From positions 1 through 62,000 of the forward strand of contig JBBHKE010000519.1 in NCBI GenBank assembly GCA_037447655.1: a stretch of DNA of 62,000 nucleotides, in the 5' to 3' direction. Origin of the DNA: Zygnema cylindricum (taxonomy: Eukaryota > Streptophyta > Zygnematophyceae > Zygnematales > Zygnemataceae). Positions 33,051 to 54,917 of this stretch are shown piece by piece. Both the position numbers and the translations under genes were made by a program. The notes under the pieces were generated by a model, which was given only the letters and a program-made list of their open reading frames with translations, did no database searches and was not told where the DNA came from. Within the stretch, counting starts at the first letter, position 1, and each line of letters opens with the position of its first letter.

Positions 33051-34073
33051 TGTAGAAATAAAAGGCTATTTTAGTATTTTCTAGGTTTTGTAAAATGCAG
33101 AAAAGAAGCAAAGGCAGTCTGCCTCTAACTCCGACACTTCTCGTAGTCATTGAAAGTTGGAGAGGGAGATAGAGCCATGGCCGCCTATGCTATCCAGACG
33201 GGGTCAAACATTAGATTGGTAGATTTACCAAACTAGTTATTCACGGGACCGGGATTTGAACTTGGTACTTGCAGTCCATCATATTCGCTGGTAGCCGGTA
33301 GCCTTAGCCAATTAGACTAGCATCAAGGTTATGCGATATAGGGTTTGATAATTAGATAAATATGTACACGTAGGCTATTTCATTTAACGGGATATTTGGA
33401 CACAGAAACAGTTTGTAATGTACGGCATACGGTATATCCAAAACGGATACCGCGCAATTTGTTTTGAAGGTGAAACAAATATTGCGCAAGTATTTATGAC
33501 GGCTACGATTGAAATCCGGTTTAATGTGATAGCAGCGAAGCATGTCGAGATCGTGGAATTGTTTTTTGGCGGTTTGCAGTCATTGTCACATCGAATGACA
33601 CGTGGCACAACCATATTGTAATACGGCATCTTTGGGGATTACAGGAACGAATCCAAAAATGACATGTGTCGCCTTGTTGGTCATGTCGTACAATCGCCAC
33701 ACATAAAGTACAGTGGCACCTATATTTTTCTGTACGATAAAGTATTATAATTGGTGCCAAACTTCAGTATACAGAGTTTTAAAGAGAGATAGGACTTTGA
33801 AAAATTTGAAAGATTGGACCCTCTCTCTAAGAGAGCTTCTGTTCAAAAGGTCAAATTTGACCCTTTATAATTTTCTACTCAAAGGAGCAATTTGAGATAT
33901 TCTTTTTGGGATCAACTTAAGGAAGTCTTACCTTCACAAGGGTGAAGGTGGCTAGAGTTTTTATTTGCCAGGGTGGCAGTTATTCTTGCCGAAAACACAA
34001 AGGGGTCAGGGTTATCCAAGAGGCTTCGTGGGAGCTGCCTACTCTAAGGACCTATGGAGGTCTCAAAGTTGCA
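33051..34073 (+). repeat. E5 3' LTR
   Basis: This 1023-bp LTR begins TGTAGAAATAAAAGG and ends CAAAGTTGCA. It retains the hairpins CTTCAC-AAG-GTGAAG and TGCCA-GGG-TGGCA near 33930-33980. The right boundary abuts gypsy integrase sequence, so E5 inserted into or recombined with the gypsy element. Confidence 0.85.
33243..33326 (-). other. Antisense tRNA-like module in E5 LTR
   Basis: The minus strand reads TAGTCTAATTGGCTAAGGC, a very tRNA-like D arm and A box. About 50 nt later comes AGTTCAAATCCCGG, a good B box and T arm. No T4 tract follows closely. Confidence 0.65.
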
Positions 34074-34079
34074 GTATAC

Positions 34080-34921
34080 AGATGCCTACAAATTTCCCAT
34101 GGCGAGAGGTTTTTCCCGGTGGAATATCTTGGCTCTTTCCACAATCAGTTTTTAGACTCTTCCCTTGTCATCCATCTCTGAAGGACCATTGCTAGGGCCG
34201 ATGCAACCCTGGGCAGTATCGGATGCCTTCCAATTTACATGAAGTAAGGACGATAGGAGTGGAGAGAAGCTTACCTGCTGAATCTGTAACCCGTAGCAAT
34301 CCAACGCACCCTTCTGTCCCACTCCCCTATATCTTATTCAACTGCATATTTTTGTAGTGACCGCTTCACTGTCTGTATGTACCTTTAAGCCAAACCGTTA
34401 GCTTGCGGGTGGTCACCGCTGGGCTGCCGATGGTCAACAAGGCATTTTTCTAAGAGGTTGGAAAATTCTCTAGCAAATTCGAAGCCTTGTTCGGTAAGAA
34501 CCTCTGCAGGCGCCCCGAATTGGACTAAAACCCTTTGCAAAAAGGTATCTGTATTTGCCTTGGACTCCATTCGAGGCAAAACATCCAACTCGATCTACTT
34601 GGAAAAATGTTTGATCATGACCAGCATGAAGCGGTTACCCCGCCAGCTGGTCGGAAGAGGTCCCTAAAGATCCAAATACCACGTATAAAACATCCCCCTG
34701 ATAGGAAGCAAATGAAGCTCAGTCCCGCCTTTTTTTTCAAAAGTTGCCTTGACTAGATCGCATGAGGAGCAAGTCTGCACAATTTGGTTAACTAGGGTCC
34801 GCAACCCGTGCCACCAATAAGAGCCCGTAACCAAGGAAGTGGTTTGCTTTTGCCCAAAGTGTCCACATTGTTGATGGAGATTAGAAATCAGAGTTTGTTG
34901 TTGTGAGGGGGGAAGATGCAC
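34080..34921 (-). pseudogene. Gypsy integrase (broken)
   Basis: An HHCC-type zinc-binding part is visible (HLPPSQQQTLISNLHQQCGH, then CSSCDLVKATF), followed by the GPLP-type core start. The core continues FGAPAEVLTEQGFEFA and GDHPQANGLAER, and a C-terminal piece reads SPYFM.YGRHPILP. The central acidic residue expected in TDQG is Glu here. Several stops divide the frame. Confidence 0.8.
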
Positions 34922-35257
34922 TTTCCTCGTGCCGTATGTCTATTTCTGTAGGAGAACGCCACTGTCCCAATCATACGTAGCTATCGGGGTTTGTACTCAG
35001 GATAATTTAATTCCAATCAAGTGGGAAAGTGGCGAACCCTGCTGGATATATTGGGGAGCCTCAAGGTCATTCTAGATATCCATACGTTTTACCCTTATAG
35101 GAGCTTCTCCCTCCACGTTGGCCGAGAAAGTTGACGATTCCCCCCTAGATTGGAGAAGCTAAATAAAGGCGGAGGAAGCTCGAATGAGTCCTAGAATGAT
35201 TTGGGGGTCCTCATCATGCCGAGCCGTGGTAGAATCCATAGTGGGGGGATCATGATT

Positions 35258-35713
35258 TTAGCTAAGTACGCCAGCATTTCCATGGATTTCTCCCGCCCTG
35301 TGAACAATGTCGAAATCATATTTTTGCAGGATAAGAACCCATCTAGCGAGTTTGCCGGTTAACTTACTATAATCCATGATCCATTTCAAGGGTTGCTGAT
35401 TGAAAATCAGGTTGAAATGGACCCTGTATAGATAAGGCCGGAAATGTTGGATTGCCCTAACTGCTGCGAGTAGCTCTCCGTGGTAATAGTTATAATTCCC
35501 CTGTGCTCTGTTATTGCTTTGGCTAGCGTAAGCCAACACATATTTTGCTCTGGCTTTATCGACTTGAGCCAAAACCGCTCCCAATCCAAACGTGCTCCAA
35601 TCAGTGTAAAGGAGGAAAGGCCTTTGGTGATCACGCATCCGGAGCACGGGTGCTACTTCAGAGCATCCTTTAAGAACTAGAAGGCCATCTGTTGCTCTTC
35701 TGCCCACTGCCAT
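35258..35713 (-). pseudogene. Gypsy RNase H domain
   Basis: About 150 codons are uninterrupted. Motifs are PFLLYTDWSTFGLGAVLAQ, where the family usually has TDAS, then YYHGELLAAV and VHRAGEIHGNAGVLS, the last being a variant of GxxNxxADxLSR. The reading frame overlaps the end of the RT fragment. Confidence 0.85.
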
Positions 35714-36600
35714 TCTGGTCCTTCTGTTATAGGTGAATTGAGGGGCTGAGCGTGACTACTCAACTCAAGGATGAACTGCGGATAGTAGCTGGCCAGACCC
35801 AGAAAGGTGCGAACGATCGAGATGTTGTGTGGTGGGGGAAGGGCGGCAAGGGCTTCCACATTGACCATGTGGGGACCCACACTCCTGGAAGTCACCTCAT
35901 GTCCGACGTAAATGATTTTCTGTACCCCAAAAATACCTTTGCCTGGGTGATATTTCAAGCCCGCTGCTTGGAGTGCCCGGAGAAGGATCTGGACATGCTC
36001 AAGGTGTTCATCAAAAGTCTTTGAGAATATGATCACATCAACAATATAGCACCGGGCACAATCAATAACTCGAAGTGCTTCATTCATTGCCCGTTGGAAT
36101 TCGGCTGGTGCATTCTTCAGCCTGAATGGCATGTAAATCCATTCATAAAGTGTAGAACATGCCCAAAATACGGTTTTCTCTCTGTGCTTCAATTCCATGG
36201 CAATATGGTGGAAACCGTTCTTTATCTCTTGAGTGGAGTATAGTGGCGCAAGCAAGAGAGTAAAATATCTCCTCTGGGGTCTGCATCGGATACCAGTCAA
36301 AGATGGTGGCCGTGTTCAACATGCGATAATCTCCACACATTAGACGGGTCCTTTTTAGGAGAGAGAACTGTCGGGGAAGCGAACCCATGAAGTCCTGTTC
36401 TTTCCTGAACCAATCTAGCTTCCATTAAGGTCTCGACTTTAGCCGTGATGAATTCCCTCTCCTTAAATCAAAGAGGATACTGCTTATGCCAAACACTAGC
36501 TATCTTGTCTATCAAATCAATTTGGAAAGGTGTCCATTTGTAATTACCAACATCTCTTTCTAACCATGAGAACACTTGCTTGTTTTTGGCCTAAAGTTTG
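35677..36600 (-). pseudogene. Gypsy reverse transcriptase (broken)
   Basis: It is recognisable from MCGDYRMLNTAT through IKNGFHHIAMELKHREKTVF, MPFRLKNAPAEFQRAMNEAL and SARSVGPH-like thumb sequence to FLGLASYYPQFI. The catalytic YxDD is altered: CYIVDVIIFS has Val where an Asp is expected. Frames shift near 36300 and 36390. Confidence 0.85.
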
Positions 36601-36944
36601 GAGAGTCGGGCCTTCTGTTGAGGATCTACCTGCTCCCCTAGGGTCTAATCTATTTTCCTCGGCTCAAAAGTAGCCCAAGCTTTGGGCGGTCTACCCAGAG
36701 GTTAATATCGAATTCGAATCCTACCGGTGGATCTGCCCCTACCCCTTTGGCTAAGACACTACTGCTGACATGTTTCGCTAAGCTGTCGCCATATAAGCCG
36801 CTGCCCTCCCCCAATGGTAAATCTAGCGGTGGTGAAATGTGAATTTTACCCCTTTCTCTCCCTCCTCAAGCTGCAAAGTTGCTACATCGCTAACAACTGA
36901 GGAGCTTGAAGGTAAGAAGCTATTGATTCCGGGGACGTGAGTTT

Positions 36945-37937
36945 GGAAAAGGCGAGTGCATGCTTGAGCAACCATGTGATGGAATTCAAATCCATACTTT
37001 GCCTTATTGGGCTGCACCTCAAAAGGTTTGAAATACCTGATACTGCCGTGGTGCCTTTACGAAATCCCATTGCTTCTTCCCGTTCTTTGATTGTCAGTGT
37101 TGTTCCGATTCTAGCTTTGCTGTTAAAAAATATTCATACTGCTCCTTTCCTATATGCGTGGCTGGTAATGAAAGAAACTAATGTGGGAAGTTCTTTTTGT
37201 GGGAATCCTGGTCGATTGCGTCAAAATAATAGAGAGCGGTTGGGTTTTGTCATAGGGGTGGCCATTCTTCCTTCCCTAAGTATCTGCTGCACATAATTTT
37301 TTGGGTCAGGTTTCTACTTATCGAACAATTGCCGGAGGAGTGGAAGCGACATCATATAGGTCCAATATGCCTTAATTCTATGAGCTCGTGATCTCATCTC
37401 AGCGGCGTCGAAAACCAAGGGAGCTCTTAAAATCCGGTTTACCTGATTCTAGCTATCTACAACATGTTTCTGTTTATCATCTCCCGGGTGAACATTCTCC
37501 GCAACGTACCCCACCGGTGTGTCATAGAGGTGTTGAAGCCACGAGTTTAATTTGATCATCTGATAAAATGTTCCACTCTAACGGTCTTGATGCCCTTTTC
37601 CTTGTCTTGCTAGGGAGTATCCCTAACAAGGCCATCGTGCCAACACCAGATCTAATGTTCCCAAACTGTCTAGATGTTGTGCCATGATGTTTTCTATGTT
37701 TTAGGGAAAAATCCGGTGAGCTTTGGAAATGGCCGACACTAGATGTTGCTAAGGGTATAGGTTGTGCAGTTCTTCGAGGCGGTGTTCGTTGACAGCCCGT
37801 GCCTCGGGTGATATCTCCACTATAGCATATGACTCCACTCGATATCCTATTTTCAAAACCGCTTCCAAATCGGAATAAATTCCTGAAAATAGAGATAAAA
37901 TACGGAGTCCTGCATCGGGGATTGTAAATGACACCAC
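36945..37937 (-). pseudogene. C5-cytosine DNA methyltransferase domain in gypsy pol
   Basis: The conserved methyltransferase motifs occur in order in a single frame interrupted by stops. Motif I is LRILSLFSGI (37907-37878), then AIVEISPEARAV. Motif IV is DLVLARWPC followed by TAG where the PCQ Gln should be (37625-37623), then GKGHQD. Motif VI is YVAENVHPGDD (Glu-Asn-Val at 37499-37491). Motif VIII is AEMRSRAHRIKAYW (near 37400). There is a late TIKEREEAMGF, and a motif-X-like QSMDLNSITWLL (near 37000-36966). The family transfers methyl groups from S-adenosylmethionine to cytosine. The late motifs resemble the Dnmt3/DRM group, tentatively. It lies between the protease and reverse transcriptase of the same element. 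Six or more stops make it inactive. Confidence 0.88.
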
Positions 37938-38339
37938 TTGTCTGTTTAATTCTTTGCTATCTGACTTGTCTTGGGATGCCTCTAACCGGTTGGTGGAAAA
38001 TGTGTTCTCAAGGGTAAAGTTGAGAAGGTCTGATCCACTCCCCGCCGGAGTTTTGCCACCTTTAATAATCTATTTTTGCATTCCTCTTCCCACCACTTGG
38101 AAATGGGGAATTGCTAGATCTCTTCTTCTATATATCTCTGAAATTGTCAAACAGTTCCGTCGGAGAGGATGTAGCATACACATGGTAACAACTCGACACC
38201 GAGACATTTATCTTTCCCCAGTTCCATAAATCTAGAGGAACCACCACTTTGGTTCTTTCGGGATTGCCGGGTCCCGAACTGTAGATTGTTCTTTCCACAC
38301 GCTTAAACCCATTTTCAGCCGTGTCTAAGTTGCCATTCC

Positions 38340-38846
38340 CAACATAATTTCAAATTGAGTCCCTTCCACCACTAACAAAGGAAGCTTAGTTTTCACCTGT
38401 TGGCCGGCGTCATCAGAAAATTCGCTTTCCATGGCCTTGACAATTCCATGGACTAGCTGAGTGTTGCTCCTGATGATGCTTAAGCAGATGTTACTTGGGC
38501 ATATTTATGGCCGGAGTTCCTCGGGCATTTTTTGCAAAGCAAAGGTTGTGATGAGTTTGGGGAGCGCTCCAGTGTCAACCACACCGTCCTCGTATCCTCC
38601 GTACCTGTTGAGTTTGAAGATCCCTTTTCGGTTCAGTATAAGAGCAACGCATAAGGCTTTGTAGTCCCCATCCACCATAGGGGTTTTCTGATATGCAAAC
38701 AAAAATAGTGAGTTCGTTGGGGTTGCCGTGTCAACTTTTACTTTTCCCGAGGGGATCTCTTCTTTTTGTGCCTGTATGAGGATTTCTTTGGGCAGGTTGT
38801 GGAAGGATGTTACAGTCTTGACGTGTGTAAGGGCGTACGGCATAAG
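38340..38846 (-). pseudogene. Gypsy aspartic protease region
   Basis: The active-site-like motif is VVDTGALPKLITTFAL (near 38584-38540). About 55 codons later comes a flap-like region with VEGTQFEIMLG. The normal active site is D-T/S-G, and it is intact here. The upstream end is cut by the ATAAG-flanked LTR element at 38847. Confidence 0.75.
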
Positions 38847-40149
38847 TGTTGTTTTTGGAAGATTCATTTTCGTACATGCGTGCGCTCGCATGTTCGCATA
38901 CTTAGTAACCAAATGTAATATGGTGGTTCGAATGGATTTGTAGTTGGGGGGGTAATTGTACGAATGAATTTAAAGTGACGTAAATTACAAATTGAGTGAC
39001 GCGAAGAAGCGTACGAATAATACGGAATACAAAATGGAAATGGACGGCGGATCGCTTCGCGATCCGATATGAAATGTTTGAAATATTTAAATTGTACGCC
39101 GGCCGTACGGAATCTAATGTGACGGGCAACAATTATGGAAAGTACGCGATGGTACAAAAGAATCTTTTTGGATAAGTATACTTCAATTTTGACGTGCGGC
39201 ATTTATGACGAAGTACGCGGTTTTCGGTACGGACAAGATTTTGATGGTACTGTATTATTTCAACGAGTGGATTGTGTTGTACTTCGAAGGCGGACGGCGT
39301 CCGCCGCTTTTTGATGGATCACACTATTTTGAGAATGTATGATCAAGTGGGCCGTAAGTATGTGACATCGGCTTGCTGCGTGGACTTATCGACAAGTGAC
39401 TAAGCAAGTTGTCACTTATGACGCGGATTTTTGGATGCGTCGGTGTAAATATTTGAAGCATCAATGTTTTGTCTTATTTGAATTAATGATTTAGTGTTGA
39501 TTAAAATAGTTATATTTTAGGTGATCAATGAGGATATCGACAGTTTAATTGTGTGTCTTTATGTGTCGTATTTGTAGACAAGTGTACGCTTACGATTGCT
39601 TGTCTTTCAGGTGTACGCTTACGATTAGTTTACTCTTACTAAAAGGTTATTATGCGTAAATAGGATTTAGTGACAGTAACGTAATTTATGACACTTAGTG
39701 ATTATTTGACAGCTCACAAGTGTATATATAGGAATGAGCTTTGTTAGGAATGAATCATCAATGCTGGTTAGTAAAGTGGGGACCAAAGATGTAGTATTTT
39801 AGGGTTGTCGATTAGGTCATGCACTTTGAATGATATAATGATTATACCTTGATTATACTCTTGTTTATGTGTGATGCATTTGTTTTTATTATTTGTGTTG
39901 TTTTGTATATGTTTGATATGCATTGTTTATGCATTTGTCCTAGGGTTTGTTTATGTCGATTATTCCATCAAACCTTAGATGTTGTCATAGGGTTTATTTA
40001 TGTTGATTATTCCATGAAACCCTAAATGTTGTTGTATGTTAAATGGAGGATGCATTTCAAATGATTGTTCGTCGACCTATTTTTTTTCTTAGCTTTTTGC
40101 ATGATAGTTTGGGTGGCTTCTGCGGTCTATTTTAGACCAAAGAACAACA
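38847..40149 (+). repeat. Non-autonomous element 5' LTR
   Basis: It begins TGTTGTTTTTGGAAG and ends AAAGAACAACA, with short inverted ends TGTTGTT/AACAACA. A TATA box (TATATATA) is at 39723-39730. A perfect inverted GATCGCTTCGCGATC lies near 39050. Open frames of 112 codons on the opposite strand exist only because the LTR is duplicated. Confidence 0.92.
39723..39730 (+). promoter_or_regulatory. TATA box in non-autonomous LTR
   Basis: TATATATA is followed by GGAATGAGC. The position, about two thirds into the LTR, would put the transcript start near 39755. The identical copy in the other LTR is at 41933-41940. Confidence 0.6.
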
Positions 40150-40163
40150 GGTTATGGGCCCAC
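40150..40163 (+). promoter_or_regulatory. Primer-binding site, non-autonomous element
   Basis: GGTTATGGGCCCAC directly follows the LTR. It is complementary to the anticodon arm of initiator tRNA-Met, as in the copia elements here. That identifies a copia-type element with a half-tRNA primer as the likely partner. Confidence 0.85.
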
Positions 40164-41056
40164 ACCCCATCTATCATATGTTAGGTTAAGTCGAGATAGG
40201 TTTGTGTCACACGCATTGTAGCGGGTTAATTTTGTTCTTGCTGGTTGTATTGCAGTAATGGTGTCTTAGTACCCATGAGATCGGCCTTATCATAGTGTTG
40301 GTATGTGCCGAGTTTAATCTTGCATCGCCCCAAGGGTTAACTTAGTGACAGTGCCGAAATGTCTACCCTCAATGAAAATGATAAATTATGAGAAATGATA
40401 TTTTATTTTTGGAAAATACATATTCGTTTGATGGAGAGATGTGGAAGGAGGAGTTTCGACGTTTGGGGGAGAGAGATCCGGAAGGTGGAGTTGTGACATG
40501 TGGTAGAGATATCCAAATATTGTGGATCGATGATTGTTGAAAATTGGATTTGTAATGTAGATTTTGAGTTGTTGGAAAATTTTGGGAAATGTGACATTAT
40601 TAGAATTTTTGGGAAAATACTATTTGTTAAATATATTTTTAATGGGAAATTTTGGGATCAGATTATTAAATGAAAAAGAAAAAGAAAAAGAAAAATTGAA
40701 ATCTAGATTTGATATAGTTGAGATAGAAATTTTGAGTTGGGATATATTATTAGTGTGATCTTTTGGCTTTAATTTTTAGTTGATTTGTGATAGAATTTTG
40801 GGAATGTAGATCCGGATTTAGATATTGGAAGGAATTATTTTTATTGTAATCAGAAAATGAAAATATATATATATATTATGTATTATGAAATTTGGATGGT
40901 ATGTGGAGGCATCGGAAGCGATGGTGGAACAAGTGGGAAAATTCAGGCGGAGGCATTTGGCGGATTCAGGAGACAGCAGGAGGTAACAGTGATCTATGGA
41001 GTGTGACAGATGATGACGTGGCGTCATGGATTTACGAAACTAAATCTTCGGGGGAG
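40164..41056 (+). other. Interior of non-autonomous element
   Basis: No frame encodes gag or pol motifs. The sequence is AT-rich with an (AAAAAG)n-like stretch near 40672-40695 and TATATATATATAT near 40864. It ends in the purine tract TTCGGGGGAG. It presumably holds only packaging and priming signals. Confidence 0.8.
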
Positions 41057-42359
41057 TGTTGTTTTTGGAAGATTCATTTTCGTACATGCGTGCGCTCGCA
41101 TGTTCGCATACTTAGTAACCAAATGTAATATGGTGGTTCGAATGGATTTGTAGTTGGGGGGGTAATTGTACGAATGAATTTAAAGTGACGTAAATTACAA
41201 ATTGAGTGACGCGAAGAAGCGTACGAATAATACGGAATACAAAATGGAAATGGACGGCGGATCGCTTCGCGATCCGATATGAAATGTTTGAAATATTTAA
41301 ATTGTACGCCGGCCGTACGGAATCTAATGTGACGGGCAACAATTATGGAAAGTACGCGATGGTACAAAAGAATCTTTTTGGATAAGTATACTTCAATTTT
41401 GACGTGCGGCATTTATGACGAAGTACGCGGTTTTCGGTACGGACAAGATTTTGATGGTACTGTATTATTTCAACGAGTGGATTGTGTTGTACTTCGAAGG
41501 CGGACGGCGTCCGCCGCTTTTTGATGGATCACACTATTTTGAGAATGTATGATCAAGTGGGCCGTAAGTATGTGACATCGGCTTGCTGCGTGGACTTATC
41601 GACAAGTGACTAAGCAAGTTGTCACTTATGACGCGGATTTTTGGATGCGTCGGTGTAAATATTTGAAGCATCAATGTTTTGTCTTATTTGAATTAATGAT
41701 TTAGTGTTGATTAAAATAGTTATATTTTAGGTGATCAATGAGGATATCGACAGTTTAATTGTGTGTCTTTATGTGTCGTATTTGTAGACAAGTGTACGCT
41801 TACGATTGCTTGTCTTTCAGGTGTACGCTTACGATTAGTTTACTCTTACTAAAAGGTTATTATGCGTAAATAGGATTTAGTGACAGTAACGTAATTTATG
41901 ACACTTAGTGATTATTTGACAGCTCACAAGTGTATATATAGGAATGAGCTTTGTTAGGAATGAATCATCAATGCTGGTTAGTAAAGTGGGGACCAAAGAT
42001 GTAGTATTTTAGGGTTGTCGATTAGGTCATGCACTTTGAATGATATAATGATTATACCTTGATTATACTCTTGTTTATGTGTGATGCATTTGTTTTTATT
42101 ATTTGTGTTGTTTTGTATATGTTTGATATGCATTGTTTATGCATTTGTCCTAGGGTTTGTTTATGTCGATTATTCCATCAAACCTTAGATGTTGTCATAG
42201 GGTTTATTTATGTTGATTATTCCATGAAACCCTAAATGTTGTTGTATGTTAAATGGAGGATGCATTTCAAATGATTGTTCGTCGACCTATTTTTTTTCTT
42301 AGCTTTTTGCATGATAGTTTGGGTGGCTTCTGCGGTCTATTTTAGACCAAAGAACAACA
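41057..42359 (+). repeat. Non-autonomous element 3' LTR
   Basis: This copy matches 38847-40149 in length and, as far as I can compare by eye, in every base, including the TATATATA at 41933-41940. It is followed by ATAAG (42360-42364). Confidence 0.92.
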
Positions 42360-42364
42360 ATAAG

Positions 42365-43069
42365 GTGCTGGATTAGCATGATAACCGGCTTCGAGGAAGG
42401 ATGGGGAGCTTTCAGTGAGGATCTAGAGGAATCTGGTTTTTGCGGATCCTAATCCTTTCCTTCTTTCTCGTCATTCTCGGAGCAGGAATTTGGGACCGGT
42501 GGGGTATTTGGAGTGTCATTTTTTGGGCATTCTACCATATATCTTTCAAACCACTCTTGATTGTCATTTTTCTCTCTTTCTAGTGTCTCCTTTTCCCGTT
42601 GTTGTTTCTCACTCTGGTAGTTTTAGAAACCGGGAGGCAGTTTAGGTTAGATAGGCAAAGATGGCTGATGAGCCAGTTTGATCATGAGGCCAATGTCGTT
42701 ATTATGGATCACCGCCTGGGGAGTAAATGACAAAGGCCCGGTAGCCTTCCGGTTGTGGTCCCCCTGACCCATTTTTTGCTTGTCTCTCGTTTGCTCCGAG
42801 GTGGAATTGCACAATTGTTGACATTTATCTCCAACCCCTACATTCCAAGCTCCAGCCAGGGTAGTTTGTGCATGGTGGGCACTTACGGGTTCTACATCCC
42901 AACCCATTAAATTGTGATTTTGCTTTAAAGCTGAAGCTCCGCGAGTTTCTGTAACAACTTTTATTTCTGTTTTTGGAGTCGTTGTGCAGCCATGAGAGGA
43001 GCAAGCCGTGAAGGAGAATTGAAGCAAAGGGTAGCCAACTATGTAGCCATTGCAGCCAGTCGTTGACAC
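42365..43069 (-). pseudogene. Gypsy gag-pol linker segment
   Basis: This minus-strand frame continues the gypsy element between the CCHC knuckle and the protease. One open stretch of about 140 codons (42647-43069) is rich in Thr, Ser, Asn and Gln and has no domain that I recognise. It is assigned by position only. Confidence 0.55.
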
Positions 43070-43223
43070 TACTGCAAGATGATGATCTTCGGTGTAAGTC
43101 TGGTCAGAGCCACTAATGCTTTTAGGTTCTTCTCAGGTAAGCATAATTCTGCGTCCCTAGAGATAGAGAAGTTCAAGTGAGAAGGTTAAAGGTAGTTTCT
43201 CCTTCTCCAGTGAACAAGGCGAA

Positions 43224-43428
43224 TTACATCATTTCTTTGGGGAACCCATTATTTCGGAAACATTGTGTTTCCTTATGCCCGATGAAACCACAAGCCTTGC
43301 ATTTTGTTCCTTCAGAGTTGTATTTGCTGCGGATTTCATTTGATATCCGGGCGTCATCAAATTTGGGAAGTTTGATTTGTCGTAGGTGGGATTGGGACAT
43401 TTTGCCGGTTTCTCCTCGGGGAGTCAAA
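43224..43428 (-). pseudogene. Gypsy gag nucleocapsid zinc knuckle
   Basis: It contains a complete CCHC motif, CKACGFIGHKETQC, in a basic, short context. It continues upstream in the piece on the far side of E6 (56387 onward), which shows that E6 inserted within gag. Confidence 0.8.
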
Positions 43429-44506
43429 TGTAGAAATTGATGGTAAGTTTAGTAATTTCTTGGTCTAAAATAAAATACAAAAAAGAAGCCAAGGCAGTGT
43501 GCCTCTAACTTCTCTCTTCAACTCCCACACTTGTTGCAGTCAGTGAAAGTCGAAGATGAAGCTAGAGCCATGGCTGCCTATGCTATCCGGAGATTTACGG
43601 GTAGTAGATAAGTTGATTTACAGTAGTAAATAAGTTGATTTTCTAATTTACTAAAAGTAGAGCTGTCAGAACCAGGATTTGATCTTGGTTCCTACTGGCC
43701 GTCAGAGCTGCCGGTATCAAGTAGCTCTATCCATTTAGTCTATGACGAGTGATAAATTACATACGGTTTGATAATTAGATAAACATTTCTACGCTGACAA
43801 ATTCATTTAACGTTAACTATTTACAGGATACATAGATTCGGTTACGTAAAAGTACGGATTAATATACGGACAAGAAACAAGTACCGCGCACTTGTTTCGA
43901 TAGTGAAACGAATATCGCGCAAGTATTTATTACGACTACGATTAAAATATGCATTTAAATCAAATGGCTGGAATGAATGCCGAGATCACGGAAAAAGGTT
44001 TTCGGCGGTTTTTGGTCATCGCCACATCGGATGACACGTAGCAAAATGACATTGGATCGCGCCATCTCTAGAGATTAAAGGAGCAAATCCGGATATACCA
44101 CGTGTCGACATTTAGGCCATGTCGTACAGTATCCGTACAGAAAGTACACCGGCAGTTGTACTTCTATGTACACAAGAGTAATATGATTGGTTCCGTACAT
44201 CAGTAGATAGAGTTTGTGAGAGAGATAGGACTTAGAAAAATTGGTTGATAGGACCCTCTCTACTAGAGAGCTTCTATACAAAAGGTCAACTTTGACCCTC
44301 CATAACTTACTCCTCAAGGTACCAAATTCAAAGATTCTTTTTGCTATCGACTCAAGGAAGTCTTCCCTTCACAAGAAGAAGGTGATTAGAGTTTTTGTTT
44401 GCCAAGGTGGCAGTTATTCGTGCTGAAAGACAAAGGGGTCAGGGTTATCCTACAGGCTTTGTGTGAGCTGCTTACTCTGAGGTCCTATGGAGGTCTCAGA
44501 GTTGCA
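43429..44506 (+). repeat. E6 5' LTR
   Basis: The LTR begins TGTAGAAATTGATGG and ends CAGAGTTGCA. It has an antisense tRNA-like module at 43665-43750 and decayed leader hairpins near 44350-44420. TGCCA-AGG-TGGCA is still intact. Confidence 0.9.
43665..43750 (-). other. Antisense tRNA-like module in E6 5' LTR
   Basis: The minus strand reads TAGACTAAATGGATAGAGC (A-box and D-arm context) and later AGATCAAATCC (B box). A T4 tract follows (AAAA on plus near 43653). Confidence 0.65.
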
Positions 44507-47500
44507 GGTTATAGCCCCACCATCTAGGGTGCATATATTCAATGGAGCTAGCTTCATATACTAGGAAAGTATGATGACAGGAGCTCTATGTGAGAAACGG
44601 TTTCGGGGAATAGTGAGTGGACAGGTGAGGTGTCCATCCAGTCTTGGGATACCTACAGCGTCTACATGAGGCAAATTCATTAGAGATGCAGATCCATCTT
44701 CAACGGAGGAGACAAAGAAAGGAGAGGTGGTGGGAAAAAGAAAGGAGAAGGAGACGACCACACCAATAGAAATAGGTTCGGCATTCATGTCACCTATTCC
44801 GAGGAACGAGGAAAATGATATTGATACATAGGACTTTAACAATATGGCAGCAAAACACTTCATCATCCACCATCTTACTCAAGGACTTGTATGTCCTCAT
44901 TTGCAGTTAGAAAGGGCATCCGATCTTTGGATGGCTCTCATAGAGATGTACTGGAGTGGTACGATTCACCTACAACATTTGGCTGATTAAAAAGTTAAGG
45001 AATATGTATACAAAAGGGGAAAGATGTTGGATTTTTGCAATGAGCTTGCAACACTTTTTATGGAGCTAGAGAGTGCTGGAAAATAATTTAGTGAAAAAGA
45101 AAAGGTTAACTCTCTACTGATGAAGTTACCTAATGAGTTGAATAACATAGTTAACCGCGTGGAGGACTTACCGGACTCAAGATGGATATGGAACTCAGTG
45201 GTAGGAATGATTCTCGTTCGGGAGAATAAAATTGAGATCCGAAGGGGAGGAAAGAGTGGGCAAGCCTTGGCAGCTGGGACCCACTTGAGGAACAAGGATT
45301 CTTGGAGACCGGTCGGAAATTACGGAGGGGGGGAGCAGAAAAATCAGACCGACGAGTTCGGACAAAGGGCTCCCAAGGGTTTATGCCATTTCAGTATCAA
45401 ACCAGGGCACTATATGGCGCAGTGCACTAAGCTAACTGAGCTCCGGTTAAAGGAAAGGCAGACCGGTGGAACCCCAAGAGGAAAGAAAAAGGCCATTGTG
45501 ACACAGGTACATGAGGTGGAATCCAAAGACGAGGACGATGAGCTCCTATTGGATGAGGAGTTGGAAGCGACAAACGAGGTACAAATTCCACGAAAGCATA
45601 AATGTGTTTTCAGTGGATTGAAAGGTGAAGCAAGCTGGATAGTAGATTCAGGTGCCTCCATGCACATGTGTAAGGATAAACACCTGTTCACTAAGATAAG
45701 AAAGATTCCCATCGTAGAAATAGAGTACGGGGATGAGAGGATAGTCACTACTACTCTTATAGGATCAGTATATCTAAAAGTGTTATTAGAAGGAAAGACA
45801 TCTATAGTTACATTCTCTGATGTATTGGTTATTCCGGAGCTGAAAAAAAACCTCATCTCTACGTCAGTATTAGATGATAAGGGTTTTGATACTAGCACTA
45901 GGAAAAGAGTCTTTACTGTTAGTTTTGAGGAAGAAGTTTATTTCACCGCTGAAAAAGGTAGCCAAGGGATGTTTAGGCTGATTTTAAGCAATGAAAAGAA
46001 GAAACTTTATTATGGTGGTGTTCATGATATAATGATGTGGCATAAGAGGCTTGGGCATGTGAATCTAGATAAGTTAAGAGAGATGAAAAAGATGGGAGTG
46101 GTGGAAGGAATTTTGTTTCAGTGAGAGTGAGAATCTAAGTGATTGTAGTGGATGTGCTTATGGTAAAGCACACAGATTGCCCTTTCCCAAAACAGCAACC
46201 TATAGGGGAGAAAAAATTCTAGATTTAGTACACATAGATATTTGGGGACCTGCAAAAGTACCCTCACCAGGGGGGAAGAGATTTATGATGATTCTAACTG
46301 ATGATTGGTCTCGATATTCCAAGGTGTATTTTTTGAAAAACAAGTCAAAAGTTCAGGATTGTTTAAGACAATATAAATCATAGAGCCAAAAACTCAATGA
46401 AACTCAAAACAAGAGAGTAAGGAGTGACAATGGTGGAGAATATACTTCTAACTAGTTTGAGGATTTTTTGAGGGAAGATGGAGTTCGGCACCAAAAGACA
46501 GTTCCTGAAAACCCGGAACAGAAAGGGGTAGCTGAACAATTAAATAGGACACTTAGTGATAGTGCTTGAAGTATGTTGTCGGATAACAAGATAGGAAAAG
46601 GTTATGGGCTGAAGCAATAAACTGCGCTATTTACCTCAAAAATAGAGTTCTTACCTCAACTATAAAAGAGCAAACACCTTTTGAGAGATGGACCGGTCGA
46701 AAACCAAACATATCTCACTTAAAGGTTTTCGGCAGTCAAGTATTCAGTTTAGATACAGATCGGTCTAATTGGAAGCTTGATCCTAAAGGAAAACCGGGAT
46801 ACTTATTAAGATATGATGAGGATGTTAAAGGATATAGAGTTTACGATCTAAAAAGGGAAGATATAATCTTAGTAAAGCATCTAGTAGTTATGGATGAAGG
46901 AAAGTCTGCGGATACCTTCAAGTATACAAAGTTAGTCAAATCCAAATTTGAGTCACAAAATTCCGATGACTTTGAGATCATAACTATCCAGGTTTTAGAG
47001 AATATGACATTCTTAAAGGTACAAATCAGACTGAAAAGGACTTGGCTACGAAAACTCCAATGACAACTCTACCCGAAGCCGAAGACGTGATGGAAATTGA
47101 TTCGAAATCAAGGGATAGGGGAGAAGCCAAGATTGGTCGAAGAATCCACAAGAACCATCTATTCCGCTCACAGATTTTGAATGGGGAAGGAGAAGTAGCA
47201 AAAGATTTCAAGAAAAACAGGTTAATAACAACGTAACAAAACTATCTCATCAAGATGAACCTCAAACTTATGGAGAGGCAATGACTTGTCCAGAAAGGAA
47301 CTGGTAGAAGACAACCATGTCTAAGGAGATGGCCTCAATTATGGCAGCTGATACTTGGGAGCAAGTGGATTGTCCACCTAACCGAAAACCAATCGGTTGT
47401 AAGTGGGTTTTCAAATTAAAACTGAACCCGGATAACACCATTGAGCGTTACAAAGCCTGATTAGTGGCAAAAGGATTTACACAGAAAGAAGGAATCGACT

Positions 47501-48467
47501 ACGAGGAAACCTTTGTCCCGGTCGTCAAATTTCCCGCTGTCCGCATACTTCTCAGTCTAGCAGCAGTGTAAGACATGGAAGTGCACTAGATGGACATCAA
47601 GACAGCCTTTTTGCATGGAGAATTGGAAGAGGAGATCTTCATGCGACAACCCGAAGGATTTGTGGAGGAAGGAGAGGAGAGTAAGGTATGCCGTCTGATC
47701 AAATCCCTTGATGGTTTGAAACATGCGCCTCGACAGTGGAATAAGAAGCTTGATGAGTTTCTTACCCGCCTGGGATATATTTGGATCAGCTCAGATTACT
47801 CAATCTATGTTTTTGAAGATGAGAAAGGTGTCATATTTATTGCAATTTACGTTGATGATTTACTTGTTTTAAGTTAATCAATGGAAAAAGTTAATAAATT
47901 GAAAACCAATCTTAAGGGGAGATTTGAAATGAAGGATATGGGGGAAGCAAAATATATTTTGGGAATTAAAGTAGATAGAGATCGAAAAAGAAAGATTATA
48001 AGATTTACTCAAAAGGAAGCAATAGGGAACATGCTTGAAATATTTCAGAGGAATAAAGCTAATATTTGTACAACTCCAATGGAGTTAAAGAACGGAAGTG
48101 AGGGGAGTGAGGAAGAAAGAGTCATAGTCTTAGACGAGGAATTATCTCCTGAATAACATAAGTTCATGCACACTATTCCTTAAAGGCAAGTAGTGGGAAG
48201 TCTAATCTATTTTATGAATTGTACCCGACCGGATTTAGTTGCAGCTATAGGAGTGTTGAGTGGAATTCTAGATGCTCCCACTAAGAGGGATTAGGAGGCA
48301 GCTAAAAGAGTCCTTAGATATTTAATAGGAACTAGGGATCTATGGTTGCATTTGGGTGGGGAAAATATTGACATCAGTACTCGGAGTGATGCCAGTTATG
48401 GTGATGGTCGATGAGGAGATGTAATTCTGGATATGTATTATATGTGGGTGATGGGGTTTGTTGTTGG
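44486..48467 (+). pseudogene. E6 gag-pol polyprotein, 5' part (broken)
   Basis: This is a copia polyprotein of the E1/E7 lineage. The ATG at 44486 lies in the LTR (M-E-V-S-E-L-Q). Gag continues to about 45430 with a knuckle whose second Cys is Ser (CHFSIKPGHYMAQC). Then come protease WIVDSGASMHMC (near 45636), integrase (46130-46900), reverse transcriptase (47330-47870, YVDDLL near 47850) and early RNase H to the E7 junction. More than ten stops and several frameshifts are present. The primer-binding site at 44507-44521 has two mismatches to the half-tRNA form. Confidence 0.88.
44507..44521 (+). promoter_or_regulatory. E6 primer-binding site (decayed)
   Basis: GGTTATAGCCCCACC has two mismatches to GGTTATGGGCCCACC. 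It lies immediately after the LTR. Confidence 0.75.
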
Positions 48468-48560
48468 TGAAACTCTGAGACCTCCATAAGTCCTCAGAGT
48501 GGACAGCTTCCAAGAAGCCTCTAGGATAATCTTGACCCCTTTGTGTTTAAGCAAAAATAA

Positions 48561-48626
48561 CTGCCACCCTGGCAGACAAAAACTCTGACCAACTTCACCC
48601 CTGTGAAGACAAGACTCCCCTGAGTC
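48561..48626 (-). promoter_or_regulatory. Three-hairpin cassette in E7 3' LTR
   Basis: The three stems are identical to those in E1: 48561-48575, 48593-48608 and 48613-48626. They are unchanged between the two E7 LTRs (second copy at 53962-54027), although nine sites elsewhere differ. Confidence 0.75.
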
Positions 48627-49215
48627 GATAGCAAAAAGAATCTCTGAATTTGCTCCCCTGAGCAGTAAGTTATGGAGGGTCAAAGTTGACCTTTTGTACA
48701 GAAGCTCTCTGGGAGAGAGGGTCCTATCTTCTAATTTTTCTAAGTCCTATCTCTCTCACAGACTCTATCTACTGATGTACGGAACCAATCAGAATTGAGT
48801 TCCGTACGCAAAAGTACAGCTGCCGGTGTACTTTATGTACGGACATTGTACGACATGGCCAAAATGTCGACACATGTCAAATCCGGATTCGGTGCCATAA
48901 TCTCCGGAGTTTCCACAATCCAACGGAATTTTGCCACGCGTCATCCGATGTGGCGATGGCCACAAACCGCCGAAATCTTCCTTCGCGATTTCGGCGCTAA
49001 TCCCAGCCGTCCGATTAAATTCGGCTTTAATCGTAGCCGTAATAAATACATGCGCGGTATTTGTTTCATTTACGAAACAAATGCGCGGTACTGATTTATG
49101 TCCGTACCGTAAGTCGTACATTACATATTACTGGATCTATGTATCCCGTAATTAATTCTAGTTAAATGGTTTATCGCTTGTTTACATATATAAATAATTA
49201 TCAAACTATATGCTA

Positions 49216-49317
49216 GGTAACACTACCGCTAGATTTAACGGCTAAGGCTACAGGCTACTTCGTGTCTGCCGGCCGGCAGGTACAAGGATCAAATCCTGCC
49301 GCCGGCATATACATTTT
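49216..49317 (+). other. Antisense tRNA-like module in E7 3' LTR
   Basis: It has TAGATTTAACGGCTAAGGC, GGATCAAATCC at 49286-49296, and a T4 tract at 49314-49317. Transcription by Pol III, if it occurs, would run toward the LTR 5' side and the 3' end of pol, antisense to the element. Confidence 0.65.
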
Positions 49318-49529
49318 ACTTTAATAAATAAACACTAACATAAAATTCCCGTAAACCTCAGGATAGCCAAGGTAGCCATGGCTCTAGCTTCCTCTCCAAT
49401 TTCTCAGTGACTGCGACAAGTTTGAGAGTTGGAGAGAGAAGTTAGAGATAAACTGCCTCGACTTCTATATTTCTTTTCAGACCTAGAAAATACTAATAAA
49501 ACCATTAGTTTCTACACTCCCCTTATTTT

Positions 49530-52500
49530 CTAGTCAATCTTTAATTTCAGACCACACTTCTCCCTGCAAAAAATTAGCTTAGGGGAAGGCACAGGTTTGG
49601 TCATCATATCTGCTACCATCTCACTATCTGGTCTGTACTCTAAACTGATTATTTTGTTTTCTACTTTCTCTCTAACAAAGCTGAGTCTGATGTCCATGTG
49701 TTTGGCTTTAAAATGGTGTTTAGGATTGGCAGAAATAGCGATTGCTGCCTGATTATCACAAAATATTTTCTGCACACCACTCTTAATGTGACCAAGCTCA
49801 CCAAGCAAAGACTTGACCCACATCAATTCTTTTACAGCAGAGCAAGAGGCCATATACTCAGCCTCCATGGTGGACTGAGCAATAACCTTTTGCTGTTTGC
49901 TACTCCAACAGCAAGCCCCATCACCCACATATAATACATATCCAGAAGTACATCTCCTCATCGGAGCATCACCATAACTGGCATCACTCCAAGTAGTGAT
50001 GTCAGTATTCTCCCCACCCAAATGCAACCATAGATCTCTAGTTCCTACCAAGTATCTAAGGACTCTCTTAGCTGCCTCCCAATCCTTCTTAGTGGGAGCA
50101 TTTAGACTTCTACTCAGCACTCCTACAGCTGCAGCTAAATCCGGCCGGGTACAATTCATAAAATAGATTAGACTTCCCACTACTTGCCTGTAAGGAATAG
50201 TCTGCATGAACTTCTGTTCTTCAGGAGATAATTCCTCGTCTAAGACTATGACTCCTTCTTCCTCACTCCCCTCACTTCCCTTCTTCAATTCCATTGGAGT
50301 TGTACAACTATTAGCTTTATCCATTTGAAATTTTTCAAGCATGTTTCCTATTGCTTCCTTTTGAGTCAATCTTATAATTTTTCTTTTTCGGTCTCTCTCT
50401 ACTTGAATTCCCAAAATATATTTTGCTTCCCCCATATCCTTCATTTCAAATCTCCCCTTAAGATCGGTTTTCAGTTTATTAATTTTTTCCATTGATTTAC
50501 TTAAAACAAGCAAATCATCAACATAAATTGCAATAAATATAAAACCTTCCTCATCTTCGAAAACATAGATTGAGTGATCTGAGCTGATCCGAATATATCC
50601 TAGACCGGTAAGAAACTCATCAAGCTTCTTATTCCACTGTCGGGGCGCCTGTTTCAAACCATAAAGAGATTTAATCAGCCGGCATACCTTACTCTCCTCT
50701 CCTTCTTCCACAAACCCTTCGGGTTGTCGCATGAAGATCTCCTCTTCTAATTCTCCATGCAAAAAGGCTGTTTTGATGTCCATCTGGTGCACTTCCATGT
50801 CTTCCGCCGCTGCTAAACTGAGAAGTATGCGGACGGAGGGAAATCTGACCACCGGGGCAAAGGTTTCCTCGTAGTCAATTCCTTCCTTTTGTGTAAATCC
50901 CTTTGCCACTAATCTGGCCTTGTAAAGCTCGATTGTGTTATCTGGGTTCAGTTTCAGTTTGAAAACCCACTTACAACCGATTGGTTTTCGGTTAGGTGGA
51001 CAGTCCACCAGCTCCCAAGTATCGGCTGCCATGATTGAAGCCATCTCCTCATTGATGGCTGTCTTCCACCGGTTTCTTTCTGGACAAGTCATCGCCTCTC
51101 GATAAGTTTGAGGTTCATCTTGATGAGATAGTTTAGTTACCTTGTTATTAACCTGTTTTTCTTGCAGTCTTTTGCTACTTCTCCTCCCTCCCTCAAAATC
51201 TGAGGCCGGAATAGATGGTTCTCGTGGATTCTTTCGAACAAACTCGGCTTCTCCCCTATCCCTTGATTCCGAATCAATTTCCACCACGTCTTCCGCTTCG
51301 AGTAGAGTTGTCACTGGAGTTTCCACAGCCGAGTCCTTTTCGGTCTGATTTGTTCCTGCAAGAATGTCATCGTCTCTAAAACCTGGATAGTTAGGAAGCT
51401 CAAAGTCATCAGAATTTTCTGACTCAAATCTGATTTTTACTGACTTTGTATATTTGAAGGGATCCACAGACTTTCCTTCATCCATAACTACTAGATGCTT
51501 TACTAAGATTATATCTTCTCTTTTTAGATCATAAACTCTATATCCTTTAACATCCTCATCATATCCTAATAAGTATCCCGGTTTTCCTTTAGGATCTAGC
51601 TTCCAATTGGACCGATCAGTATCTAGACTGAATACTTGACTGCCGAAAACCTTTAAATGAGATAAGTCTGGTTTCCGGCCTGTCCATCTCTCATAAGGTG
51701 TTTGATCTTTTATAGCTGAAGTAAGAACTCTATTTTTGAGGTAATTAGCACAGTTCATTGCTTCTGCCCAAAACCTTTTTCCTATCTTCTTATCCGACAA
51801 CATACTTCTAGCACTATCACTTAGTGTTCTATTTAACCTTTCAGCTACCCCATTCTGTTCAGGATTTTCTGGCACTGTCTTTTGGTGTTGAACCCCATCT
51901 TCCCTCAAAAAGTCCTCAAACTGGTTAGAAGTATACTCTCCACCATTGTCACTCCTTACTCTCTTGATTGGAGTTTCATGGAGTTTTTCGCTCCATGCTT
52001 TATATTGTCTAAAACAGTCCTCAGCTTCTGACTTGTTTTTCAAAAAATATACTCGGGAATACCGAGACCAATCATCAGTTATAGTCATCATAAATCTCTT
52101 CCCCCCCGGTGAGGGAACTCTAGCTGGTCCCCAAATATCTGTGTGTACTAGATCTAGAAGTTTTTCTCCCTTGTTGGTGGCTGTTTTTGGAAAGGGTAAT
52201 CTGTGTGCTTTACCTTGAGCACACCCACTACAATCACTTATATCATCACTCTCACTGAACTGAATCCCTTCCACCACTCCCATCTTTTTCATCTCTCTTA
52301 ACTTATCTAGATTCACATGCCCAAGCCTCTTATGCCACATCATAATATCATGAACACCAGTATAATAAAGTTTCTTCGTTTCATTACTTAAGATCAGCCT
52401 AAACATCCCATGGCTACCTTTCTCAGCAATGAAATAGACATCCTCCTCAAAACTAGCAATAAAGACTCCTTCCCTAGTGCTAGTAAAAAAACCCTTATCA

Positions 52501-53888
52501 TCTAATACAGATGTAGAGATAAGGTTTTTGTTCAATTCCGGAATAAACAATACATCGGAGAATGTTAATATGGATGTCTTTCCTTCAACTAACACTTTCA
52601 GATCTACCGATCCTACAAGAGTAGTGGTGACTATCCTCCCATCCCCGTACTCTATCTCTACGGTGGGAATCTTTCTTATCTTAGTGAACAGGTGTCTATC
52701 CTTACACATGTGCATTGAGGCACCTGAATCTATAATCCAGCCTGCTTCACCTTTCAATCCACCGTAAGCACATTTCTGCCTTCGTGGAATTTCAACCTCA
52801 GTTTTCGCCTCCAACTCCTCATCCAAAAGGAGCTCATCGTCCTCGTCCTCGGATTCCGCCTCAAGTACCTGTGTGACAAGGGCCTTTTTCTTTCCTCTCG
52901 GGGTACCACCGGTCTGCCCCTCCTTTAACCGAAGCTCGGTTAGCTTGGTGCACTCTGCCATATAGTGCCCAGGTTTCTTACAAAAATGACATAAACCTTT
53001 GGGAGCCCTTGGTTCGAACTCGCCAACCTGTTTTTCCCGCTCCCTACCCCCATAGTTTCTGACTGGTTTCCGGGAATCCTTGTTCCTCCAATCGGTCGCT
53101 GTTGCCAAGGCTTGGCCACTCTTTCCTCCCCTTCGGATCTCAATCGTATTCTCTCGAACGAGAATCATCCCTACCACTGAGTTCCATATCCACCTTGAGT
53201 CCGGCAAGTCCTGCACACGGTTGACTATGTTCTCGAACTCATCAGGTAACTTCATTAGTAAACAGTTAACTTTTTCTTTTTCACTAAAAACTTTACCCGC
53301 ACTCTCTAGCTCCATGAAGAGTGTAGCAAGCTCATTGCAAAAATCCAACATATTTCCCCCTTTGTATACATACTCCTTAACTTTCTGATCAGCCAACTGT
53401 TGTTGCTGAATCGTACCACTTCGGTACATCTCTATGAGAGCCATCCAAAGATCGGATGCCCTCTCTACCTGCAAATGAGGACATGCAAGTCCTTGAGTGA
53501 GATGGCGTAGGATGAAGTGCTTTGCCGCCATATTGTTGAAGTCCCAGGTTTCAGTATCATTCTCCTCGTTCCTCGGAATAGGTGACATGAATGCTAAACC
53601 AGTTGCTATTGGTGTGGTCGCCTCCTTCTCCTTTCCTTTGTCCACCACCTCTCCTTCTTTTGTTTCCTCCGTTGAAGGTGAATCCTCTTTCCTGGTGAAT
53701 CAGCTTCCTTTAAACCCTGGAGGAATTCCAAGACTTGATGGACGCCCCAATCGTCCACTCACTATCCCCCAAAACCTTTTTTCGCATAGAGCTCCTATCA
53801 TCATACTTTCCCAGTATATGAAGCCAGTTCCATTAAATATTGGTACCCTAGAGGGTGGGCCCATAACCTGAAACTCTGAGACCTCCAT
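49530..53888 (-). CDS. E7 gag-pol polyprotein (one nonsense codon)
   Basis: This is a complete Ty1/copia polyprotein of about 1453 codons from the ATG inside the 5' LTR (53886-53888). A single TGA near 53699 (Arg codon AGA in E1) separates the first 62 codons; the frame then stays open to TAG at 49530. From the internal Met at 53648 (1372 residues) the knuckle CHFCKKPGHYMAEC is near residue 220 and the protease WIIDSGASMHMC near 303. Integrase Asp, Asp and Glu are near 503, 567 (SDNGGEY) and 600 (PEQNGVAERLN). RT has MDIKTAFLHG near 957 and YVDDLL near 1040. RNase H runs about 1220-1340, with DASYGDAP and CDNQAAIA. All catalytic motifs appear intact. Confidence 0.92.
53854..53868 (-). promoter_or_regulatory. 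E7 primer-binding site (half-tRNA iMet)
   Basis: The minus strand reads GGTTATGGGCCCACC, directly 3' of the 5' LTR. It is a perfect 15-nt complement to the anticodon arm of plant initiator tRNA-Met. It encodes V-M-G-P-P of gag. Confidence 0.88.
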
Positions 53889-54917
53889 AAGTCCTCAGAG
53901 TGGACAGCTTTCAAGAAGCCTCTAGGATAATCCTGACCCCTTTGTGTTTAAGCAAAAATAACTGCCACCCTGGCAGACAAAAACTCTGACCAACTTCACC
54001 CCTGTGAAGACAAGACTCCCCTGAGTCGATAGCAAAAAGAATCTCTGAATTTGCTCCCCTGAGCAGTAAGTTATGGAGGGTCAAAGTTGACCTTTTGTAC
54101 AGAAGCTCTCTGGGAGAGAGGGTCCTATCTTCTAATTTTTCTAAGTCCTATCTCTCTCACAGACTCTATCTACTGATGTACGGAACCAATCAGAATTGAG
54201 TTCCGTACGCAAAAGTACAGCTGCCGGTGTACTTTATGTACGGACATTGTATGACATGGCCAAAATGTTGACACATGTCAAATCCGGATTCGGTGCCATA
54301 ATCTCCGGAGTTTCCACAATCCAACGGAATTTTGCCACGCGTCATCCGATGTGGCGATGGCCACAAACCGCCGAAATCTTCCTCCGCGATTTTGGCGCTA
54401 ATCCCGGCCGTCCGATTAAATTCGGCTTTAATCGTAGCCGTAATAAATACATGCGCGGTATTTGTTTCATTTACGAAACAAATGCGCGGTACTGATTTAT
54501 GTCCGTACCGTAAGTCGTACATTACATATTACTGGATCTATGTATCCCGTAATTAATTCTAGTTAAATGGTTTATCGCTTGTTTACATATATAAATAATT
54601 ATCAAACTATATGCTAGGTAACACTACCGCTAGATTTAACGGCTAAGGCTACCGGCTACTTCGTGTCTGCCGGCCGGCAGGTACAAGGATCAAATCCTGC
54701 CGCCGGCATATACATTTTACTTTAATAAATAAACACTAACATAAAATTCCCGTAAACCTCAGGATAGCCAAGGTAGCCATGGCTCTAGCTTCCTCTCCAA
54801 TTTCTCAGTGACTGCGACAAGTTTGAGAGTTGGAGAGAGAAGTTAGAGATAGACTGCCTCGACTTCTATATTTCTTTTCAGACCTAGAAAATACTAATAA
54901 AACCATTAGTTTCTACA
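53869..54917 (-). repeat. E7 5' LTR
   Basis: This 1049-bp LTR has its hairpin cassette at 53962-54027 and antisense tRNA-like module at 54617-54718. It provides the gag initiation codon. It is followed by the target duplication GTTGG. Confidence 0.95.
54617..54718 (+). other. Antisense tRNA-like module in E7 5' LTR
   Basis: This is the same module as at 49216-49317, with an unchanged A-box-like TAGATTTAACGG, unchanged GGATCAAATCC and TTTT downstream. Confidence 0.65.

Follow-up and report, generated by a model that had tools for sequence, protein, structure and literature searches.

The question raised by this locus is whether the stretch between the protease and the reverse transcriptase (RT) of a decayed gypsy element encodes a C5 cytosine DNA methyltransferase and, if so, whether the domain belongs to the element or landed in it by chance. 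The window, by which we mean the whole 62,000-nt stretch of DNA that was analysed, comprises bases 1-62000 of contig C398 in a genome assembly of 352.8 Mb and 2689 contigs. The initial annotation had proposed a gypsy retrotransposon with a captured methyltransferase. With a probability of roughly 0.87, we read the domain as a Dnmt3-type methyltransferase of a gypsy element with the order gag, protease, methyltransferase, RT, RNase H, integrase and a PHD-like end, which forms a large family in a likely streptophyte genome and has long kept the domain. In the order of the element, the window copy and the insertions that interrupt it read as follows.

56447..58305, minus strand: gag, N-terminal and middle part, to the right of the nested Copia element (tblastn with the open reading frames (ORFs) of sister loci L041 and L045)
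43429..56386, plus strand: old Copia element nested within gag, with a second Copia inside it (LTRs 91% identical; gag on both sides)
42360..43424, minus strand: C-terminal gag with zinc knuckle CKACGFIGHKETQC and the stretch up to the protease (633-aa ORF of L044 and L041 gag, 57-79%)
38847..42359, strand not assigned: nested young LTR element (two identical 1303-bp LTRs, 38847-40149 and 41057-42359)
38131..38846, minus strand: aspartic protease region, VDTGALPKLITTFALQKMPEELRP (residues 391-629 of the L044 ORF, 72-74%)
36885..37958, minus strand: predicted Dnmt3-type C5 cytosine methyltransferase domain (single frame, eight in-frame stops)
37623..37625, minus strand: TAG stop immediately after the motif IV Cys (frame reading and alignment)
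35557..36467, minus strand: RT, frameshifted (PF00078, 2.1e-13 on 35680-36315; L041 Pol by tblastn)
35261..35755, minus strand: RNase H (PF17917, 3.1e-28)
34080..35257, minus strand: integrase with H2C2 zinc finger (34667-34939) and core, C-terminus cut off (PF17921, 2.6e-15; L041 Pol match to 34080)
33448..34073, plus strand: Copia LTR where the gypsy integrase breaks off (LTR comparison)

The methyltransferase of the window copy is read in one frame, open in pieces between stops from 38069 to 36885 on the minus strand; no frame correction was needed, and sister proteins align across it without a change of frame. Motifs I, IV, VI, VIII and X follow one another in the canonical order, without the permutation seen in DRM, in agreement with the initial annotation, which had also placed a stop right after the catalytic Cys. 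Indeed, the PC dipeptide of motif IV is retained and the next codon is the TAG, one of eight stops in the frame (five TAG, one TAA and two TGA). A non-standard code as the cause of the TAG stops is rejected because the 1389-codon Copia frame in the window has no internal TAG and itself terminates in TAG, and because the RT of the gypsy copy is frameshifted too.

Similarity to the C5 methyltransferases had been set beforehand as the check on this reading, and it is significant. With X at the stops, the top phmmer matches of the window domain in PDB are DNMT3C (2.6e-8) and DNMT3A (5.5e-7), with DNMT3B also found, and DRM reaches 0.09 only. The Pfam profile PF00145 matches at E 0.014 with X at the stops and 0.0002 with the stops read as residues, both below the curated cut-off, so that by Pfam the decayed window copy alone would be arguable. 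Three database proteins, which are JGI and ENA records (two of the source names mention a methylase), align with the domain: P0056 (1494 aa, E 3.7e-74, 39% identity with the stops read as residues), P0057 (685 aa, E 3.9e-69, 40%) and P0058 (1583 aa, E 1.7e-13, 30%). A first search confined to proteins of about 217-690 aa had returned no relative, these being found once longer carriers were admitted, and no relative came from viral and prokaryote contigs. Between 37964 and 34080, P0056 aligns with the window in collinear order through the methyltransferase, RT, RNase H and integrase, P0057 being collinear as well; for P0056 the identities are 37% from the methyltransferase to the start of RT, 55-67% in RT and 57% in RNase H-integrase. 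PF00145 is found in P0056 (7e-10) and P0057 (2e-11); P0058 has no match at E 0.01, and its place therefore rests on alignment. A profile of the relatives, built from three proteins of which one was entered twice, scores against the references in the order DNMT3A (6.3e-15), HhaI (2.3e-8), DRM (7.8e-8) and Dnmt2 (7e-4), the C-terminal motif also aligning in order. By these profile scores, the Dnmt3 class appears to fit best among the C5 classes. The predicted structures are of low confidence (pLDDT 33 for P0055 alone and 35 for P0057 with two relatives).

The remainder of the element is recognizable in the window by Pfam and by sister proteins, which together give the protease-RT-RNase H-integrase Pol order of Ty3/gypsy. 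The gag at 56447..58305 matches the L041 (716 aa) and L045 (597 aa) ORFs at 57-63% over the main stretch, with E down to 2.6e-156. The zinc knuckle and the protease motif read CEACGFMGHKEGQC and AVVDTGALPNLITTSALQKMPEELRP in the sisters, with Pfam support for the protease limited to a weak Asp_protease_2 match below the cut-off in L045. On the sister proteins, the window copy falls into three blocks (58305-56447, 43424-42359 and 38846-34080), and the proposed position of the methyltransferase is thereby confirmed, with the protease at 38131-38846 on one side and RT-RNase H-integrase at 36467-34080 on the other. The young LTR element is flanked by a target site duplication, ATAAG, at 38842-38846 and 42360-42364, and residues 391 and 392 of the sister ORF are contiguous across it; its inner part measures 907 bp. 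The 5-mers flanking the old Copia agree at three of five places. A Copia gag-pol frame at 49533-53699 on the minus strand is open over 1389 aa, and its closest database relative is 37% identical. The window gypsy copy retains no terminal repeat, and no tRNA or Rfam family exceeded the threshold in the 62,000-nt window. This copy is dead, as initially stated: its methyltransferase contains eight stops, its RT is frameshifted, two elements have inserted into it and its integrase is truncated.

Copy counts in the genome are lower bounds, only the best candidates having been scored: at least 119 copies of the P0056 domain (best 119 of 1775 candidates; E 4e-129 to 5e-86, 43-57% identity), at least 123 matches to PF00145 (best 123 of 782) and at least 115 RT places (best 115 of 4218). 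Counting stops as residues, loci L011-L040 match the window domain at 67-70% identity in 11 cases, 58-62% in 14 and 44-48% in five; L004 and L005 form a distinct subfamily (30-32%). The segment sits at the same place in the sister gypsy copies, with RT downstream of the methyltransferase in 26 of the 30 best loci (of at least 119), on the same strand in all 26 and after a gap of 438-645 nt; at the other four (L012, L033, L034 and L035), no RT was found within the flank. The methyltransferase frame is open in 17 of the 30 best-scoring copies, a choice that favours intact ones, so the word fossil, used in the initial annotation, suits the window copy but does not cover the whole family.

Fourteen 10-kb stretches around sister loci (L041-L054) contain open Pol frames of 1520 and 1525 aa (L041 and L042) and a 2395-aa gag-pol (L050). 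In L050, Pfam gives a zinc knuckle (below the cut-off), DNA_methylase (2e-11), RVT_1, RNase H, H2C2, rve and PHD (1.5e-9), and L041 and L042 follow the same order with PHD below the cut-off. A VDTGAL-type protease motif lies upstream of the domain in L041, L044, L045, L048, L052 and L054; searching by pattern, no DTG protease motif was found in the tested ORF of L042 or in L050 and L051. One match to the P0056 domain, at 101838-102848, lies on the window's own contig, where L054 (C398:97000-106999), about 64 kb off, is a rearranged copy of another subfamily.

A listed methyltransferase is found no more than 3 kb upstream of 57 of the 115 RT places, and at the remaining ones it may be unlisted rather than missing. 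Both inspected RT places of this kind carry a partial methyltransferase consisting of the C-terminal half (L057, C370:140000-141200; L058, C961:72800-74000), and no Pfam family was found in the 399-aa stretch of these half-methyltransferase copies. These two places suggest that some lineages may do without catalysis. The open frame surrounding the RT copy on C961 is listed as 5743 aa.

By loose patterns, the 19 open copies among 32 loci keep motif I in 19, motif IV (W-P/E-C-Q-G) in 19, motif VI, with its EN, in 19, motif VIII in 17 and motif X in 18. Motif IV reads WPCQG in 17 of them and WECQG in two, L050 and L051, of which L050, the sole sister seen whole, comes from a distant subfamily that shares about 30% identity with the window domain. 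In P0058, the motif reads WSCQH, with Cys and Gln retained and Pro replaced. Ka/Ks was estimated from open copies only, which lowers the values, and from pairs that share history and are not independent. Under these terms, 17 methyltransferases give 136 pairs (76 saturated, four too close and 56 usable), with Ka/Ks below 0.2 in 41 of the 56 and a median of 0.197 (range 0.09-0.59; 32 pairs with Ks 0.05-1.5), and 14 RTs give 91 pairs, with values below 0.2 in 59 of the 74 usable and a median of 0.17 (range 0.01-1.09; 37 pairs). The subfamilies come out broadly alike in trees of 39 methyltransferases and 32 RTs. Resolution is weak in the RT tree, where 5 of the 27 inner branches are starred; the window row has a long branch, and L037 and P0056/P0057 are placed differently in the two trees. 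The same placement in the sisters and the broadly congruent trees argue that the domain has long been held and is no chance insertion. As far as sequence comparison can tell, the element already carried the domain when the subfamilies diverged, and purifying selection has maintained it, from which it follows that the methyltransferase most likely serves the element.

Two explanations would deprive the domain of any such history. A decayed gypsy spacer might resemble methyltransferase motifs by chance, for which the PF00145 score of the window copy itself, below the cut-off, could be quoted; but the DNMT3 match in PDB, the E value of 3.7e-74 to P0056 with collinearity through the integrase, and open copies in the same genome that reach PF00145 at 8e-13 to 2e-11 make this explanation practically negligible, and we reject it. 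Alternatively, a host Dnmt3 gene or a retrocopy of it could have dropped into one gypsy copy, which is what the window copy, and nothing more, would suggest. Such an event is very improbable given at least 119 copies, the same placement at 26 of 30 loci, collinear relatives in other sources and the broad congruence of the trees, and the sister copies rule it out as a single chance landing. We thus retain the reading of a methyltransferase that has long been a part of this gypsy family.

Retrotransposons that carry methyltransferases are known from the charophyte Klebsormidium nitens and from Symbiodinium, according to the available text of PMC5890265. KnitGypsy-Dnmt3, as described there, resembles the present family in its gypsy domains, in the unpermuted Dnmt3-type methyltransferase inside Pol, in having several copies whose domain is under purifying selection, in its streptophyte host (here likely) and in its repeats. 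The latter are whole in sister L050 (C1344:85514-96154), which has split direct repeats in place of plain direct LTRs at both ends: A1 (85514-86444), B1 (94737-94978), A2 (94981-95911; 100% identical to A1) and B2 (95912-96154; 99.6% identical to B1). This A-coding-B-A-B layout is that of DIRS repeats, and K. nitens gypsy has a DIRS repeat structure (PMC5890265, available text). Split repeats and a Dnmt3 in gypsy Pol make our family a further member of the KnitGypsy-Dnmt3 kind, a likeness drawn by description. No record bearing the name K. nitens was among the relatives that the database searches brought up. It differs in the number of copies (at least 119), in the WECQG subfamily and in the PHD-like C-terminus of Pol, the words PHD, chromodomain and protease being absent from the main text of PMC5890265. 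SymbioDIRS-Dnmt3 of Symbiodinium shares the Dnmt3 in Pol beside RT and the split direct repeats, but belongs to the DIRS class with a tyrosine recombinase, whereas L050, L041 and L042 have a DDE integrase core (PF00665) with an H2C2 finger, and no tyrosine recombinase (PF00589) was found in the ORFs of these three; SymbioLINE-Dnmt is also a retrotransposon-carried C5 methyltransferase, but one of an orphan class in ORF1 of a LINE (both in the available text of PMC5890265). Judged by title and the start of the abstract, the open-access literature yielded no gypsy-Dnmt3 report beyond PMC5890265 and PMC12344493, both available in part.

In the window's nearer subfamily, the repeats are seen in part: L045 has B1 and B2 around an A-like stretch, and L046 has a piece of A upstream. 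The outer ends of L050 read TGTC...GACA, with a 4-bp duplication, TTGG, outside A1 and B2, while no match was found between the 5-mers next to A1 and A2. The matching TTGG together with TGTC/GACA makes these ends look like ordinary integrase products. The inner B1-A2 junction reads GACA-GC-TGTC and, in this one element, looks like two unprocessed element ends joined.

Chromoviruses are gypsy elements with a chromodomain at the C-terminus of the integrase. In our family, a histone-reader-like domain likewise ends the integrase, but a PHD-finger-like block takes the place of the chromodomain, and the polyprotein also carries a methyltransferase. Of the 14 loci, 12 have such a block at the end of the integrase (L041-L045, L047-L052 and L054, partial in L049); L046 and L053 lack it. 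PF00628 exceeds its cut-off in L050 (1.5e-9) and in P0058 and stays below it in L041 and L042; Pfam found no PHD in P0056. By title and the start of the abstract, we identified no open-access report of a gypsy integrase closed by a PHD finger. A more speculative idea, which we consider unlikely, is that a Dnmt3-type writer in the protease-RT gap and a PHD reader at the end of the integrase make up a two-part epigenetic kit that methylates the cDNA and chooses the chromatin for the new copy, and that the element unites two modes of replication, DIRS-like split repeats being combined with ends of the DDE cut-and-paste type.

The decay of the window copy bears on who methylates this DNA. Relative to a sister and an outgroup copy, the methyltransferase of the window lineage has 137 changes, with C-to-T at 61 versus 22 in reverse; by context, C-to-T affects 26 of 96 CHG, 7 of 44 CG and 28 of 229 CHH sites (CHG versus CHH, p 0.0017). 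The RNase H-integrase part has 93 C-to-T versus 24 in reverse (CG 32/103, CHG 25/152, CHH 36/382; p 0.024). The sister lineage has 24 versus 20 and 26 versus 22, respectively, and no context effect, a contrast that is explained in part by selection, since a neutral lineage is compared with a selected one and CAG-to-TAG is free in the neutral one only. Like numbers come from two more sister/outgroup pairs for the methyltransferase and one for RNase H-integrase (one pair being too short), which share the same window changes and are not replicates. CpG depletion is not distinctive (0.63 in the window gypsy, 0.58-1.05 in open-copy loci and 0.34-0.59 in Copia). CHG methylation is a mark of plant chromomethylases, and decay at CG and CHG sites fits plant-type silencing. 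The available text of PMC12344493 likewise ties CHG methylation to plant chromomethylases. With C-to-T changes concentrated at CG and CHG sites, the decay speaks for methylation of the dead copy by its host more than for the self-methylating element of the initial annotation; once dead, the copy would have decayed as methylated plant-lineage DNA does. The C-to-T excess might instead be a trace of the element's own methyltransferase, which the size of the excess in both parts of the window lineage would allow; but CHG sites are part of the excess, whereas in a yeast test those Dnmt3 elements that were active methylated CG (PMC5890265, available text), and the sister lineages lack the context effect, leaving this origin improbable.

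The initial annotation had also guessed at a charophyte, a guess supported by the CHG excess and by 27 matches to GRAS exons, which are spread over 12 contigs of the genome and include at least four with internal stops. To our knowledge, GRAS among eukaryotes marks Zygnematophyceae and land plants, and these genes make a streptophyte host likely. The Rubisco large subunit had no match in the genome.

As to what the domain does, we tentatively suggest that its likeliest work is methylation of the element's own cDNA: whether freed by the protease or active as part of Pol, the methyltransferase would methylate the double-stranded cDNA at or before integration, and the PHD finger at the end of the integrase may direct integration or methylation towards particular chromatin. 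The K. nitens domain gave no visible methylation in yeast, a result its authors call inconclusive in the available text of PMC5890265. The methyltransferase could also serve the element otherwise, through RNA methylation, restraint of transposition or as a structural part of Pol, in keeping with the replaced motif IV Pro in L050/L051 and P0058 and with the two RT places that hold the C-terminal half alone. Such roles seem rather unlikely to us, because motif IV Cys and Gln, motif I and the EN of motif VI are kept in all 19 open copies and the domain's closest relatives of solved structure are Dnmt3-class DNA methyltransferases.

Retrotransposons are normally victims of DNA methylation, and one would not expect an element to carry and conserve a methyltransferase of its own. 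In the open-access literature, as far as it was available, the cases so far are K. nitens and Symbiodinium, to which a further, apparently streptophyte genome is added here. What this family brings to the known kind is its size, the PHD-like end, the integrase-type ends, the variation of motif IV between subfamilies and the pattern of decay. The decay spectrum may help to tell whether a dead copy was methylated by the host or by the element, and more than 100 copies, some of them open, with WPCQG, WECQG and half-domain subfamilies side by side, make the question of what such an element gains from its methyltransferase testable.
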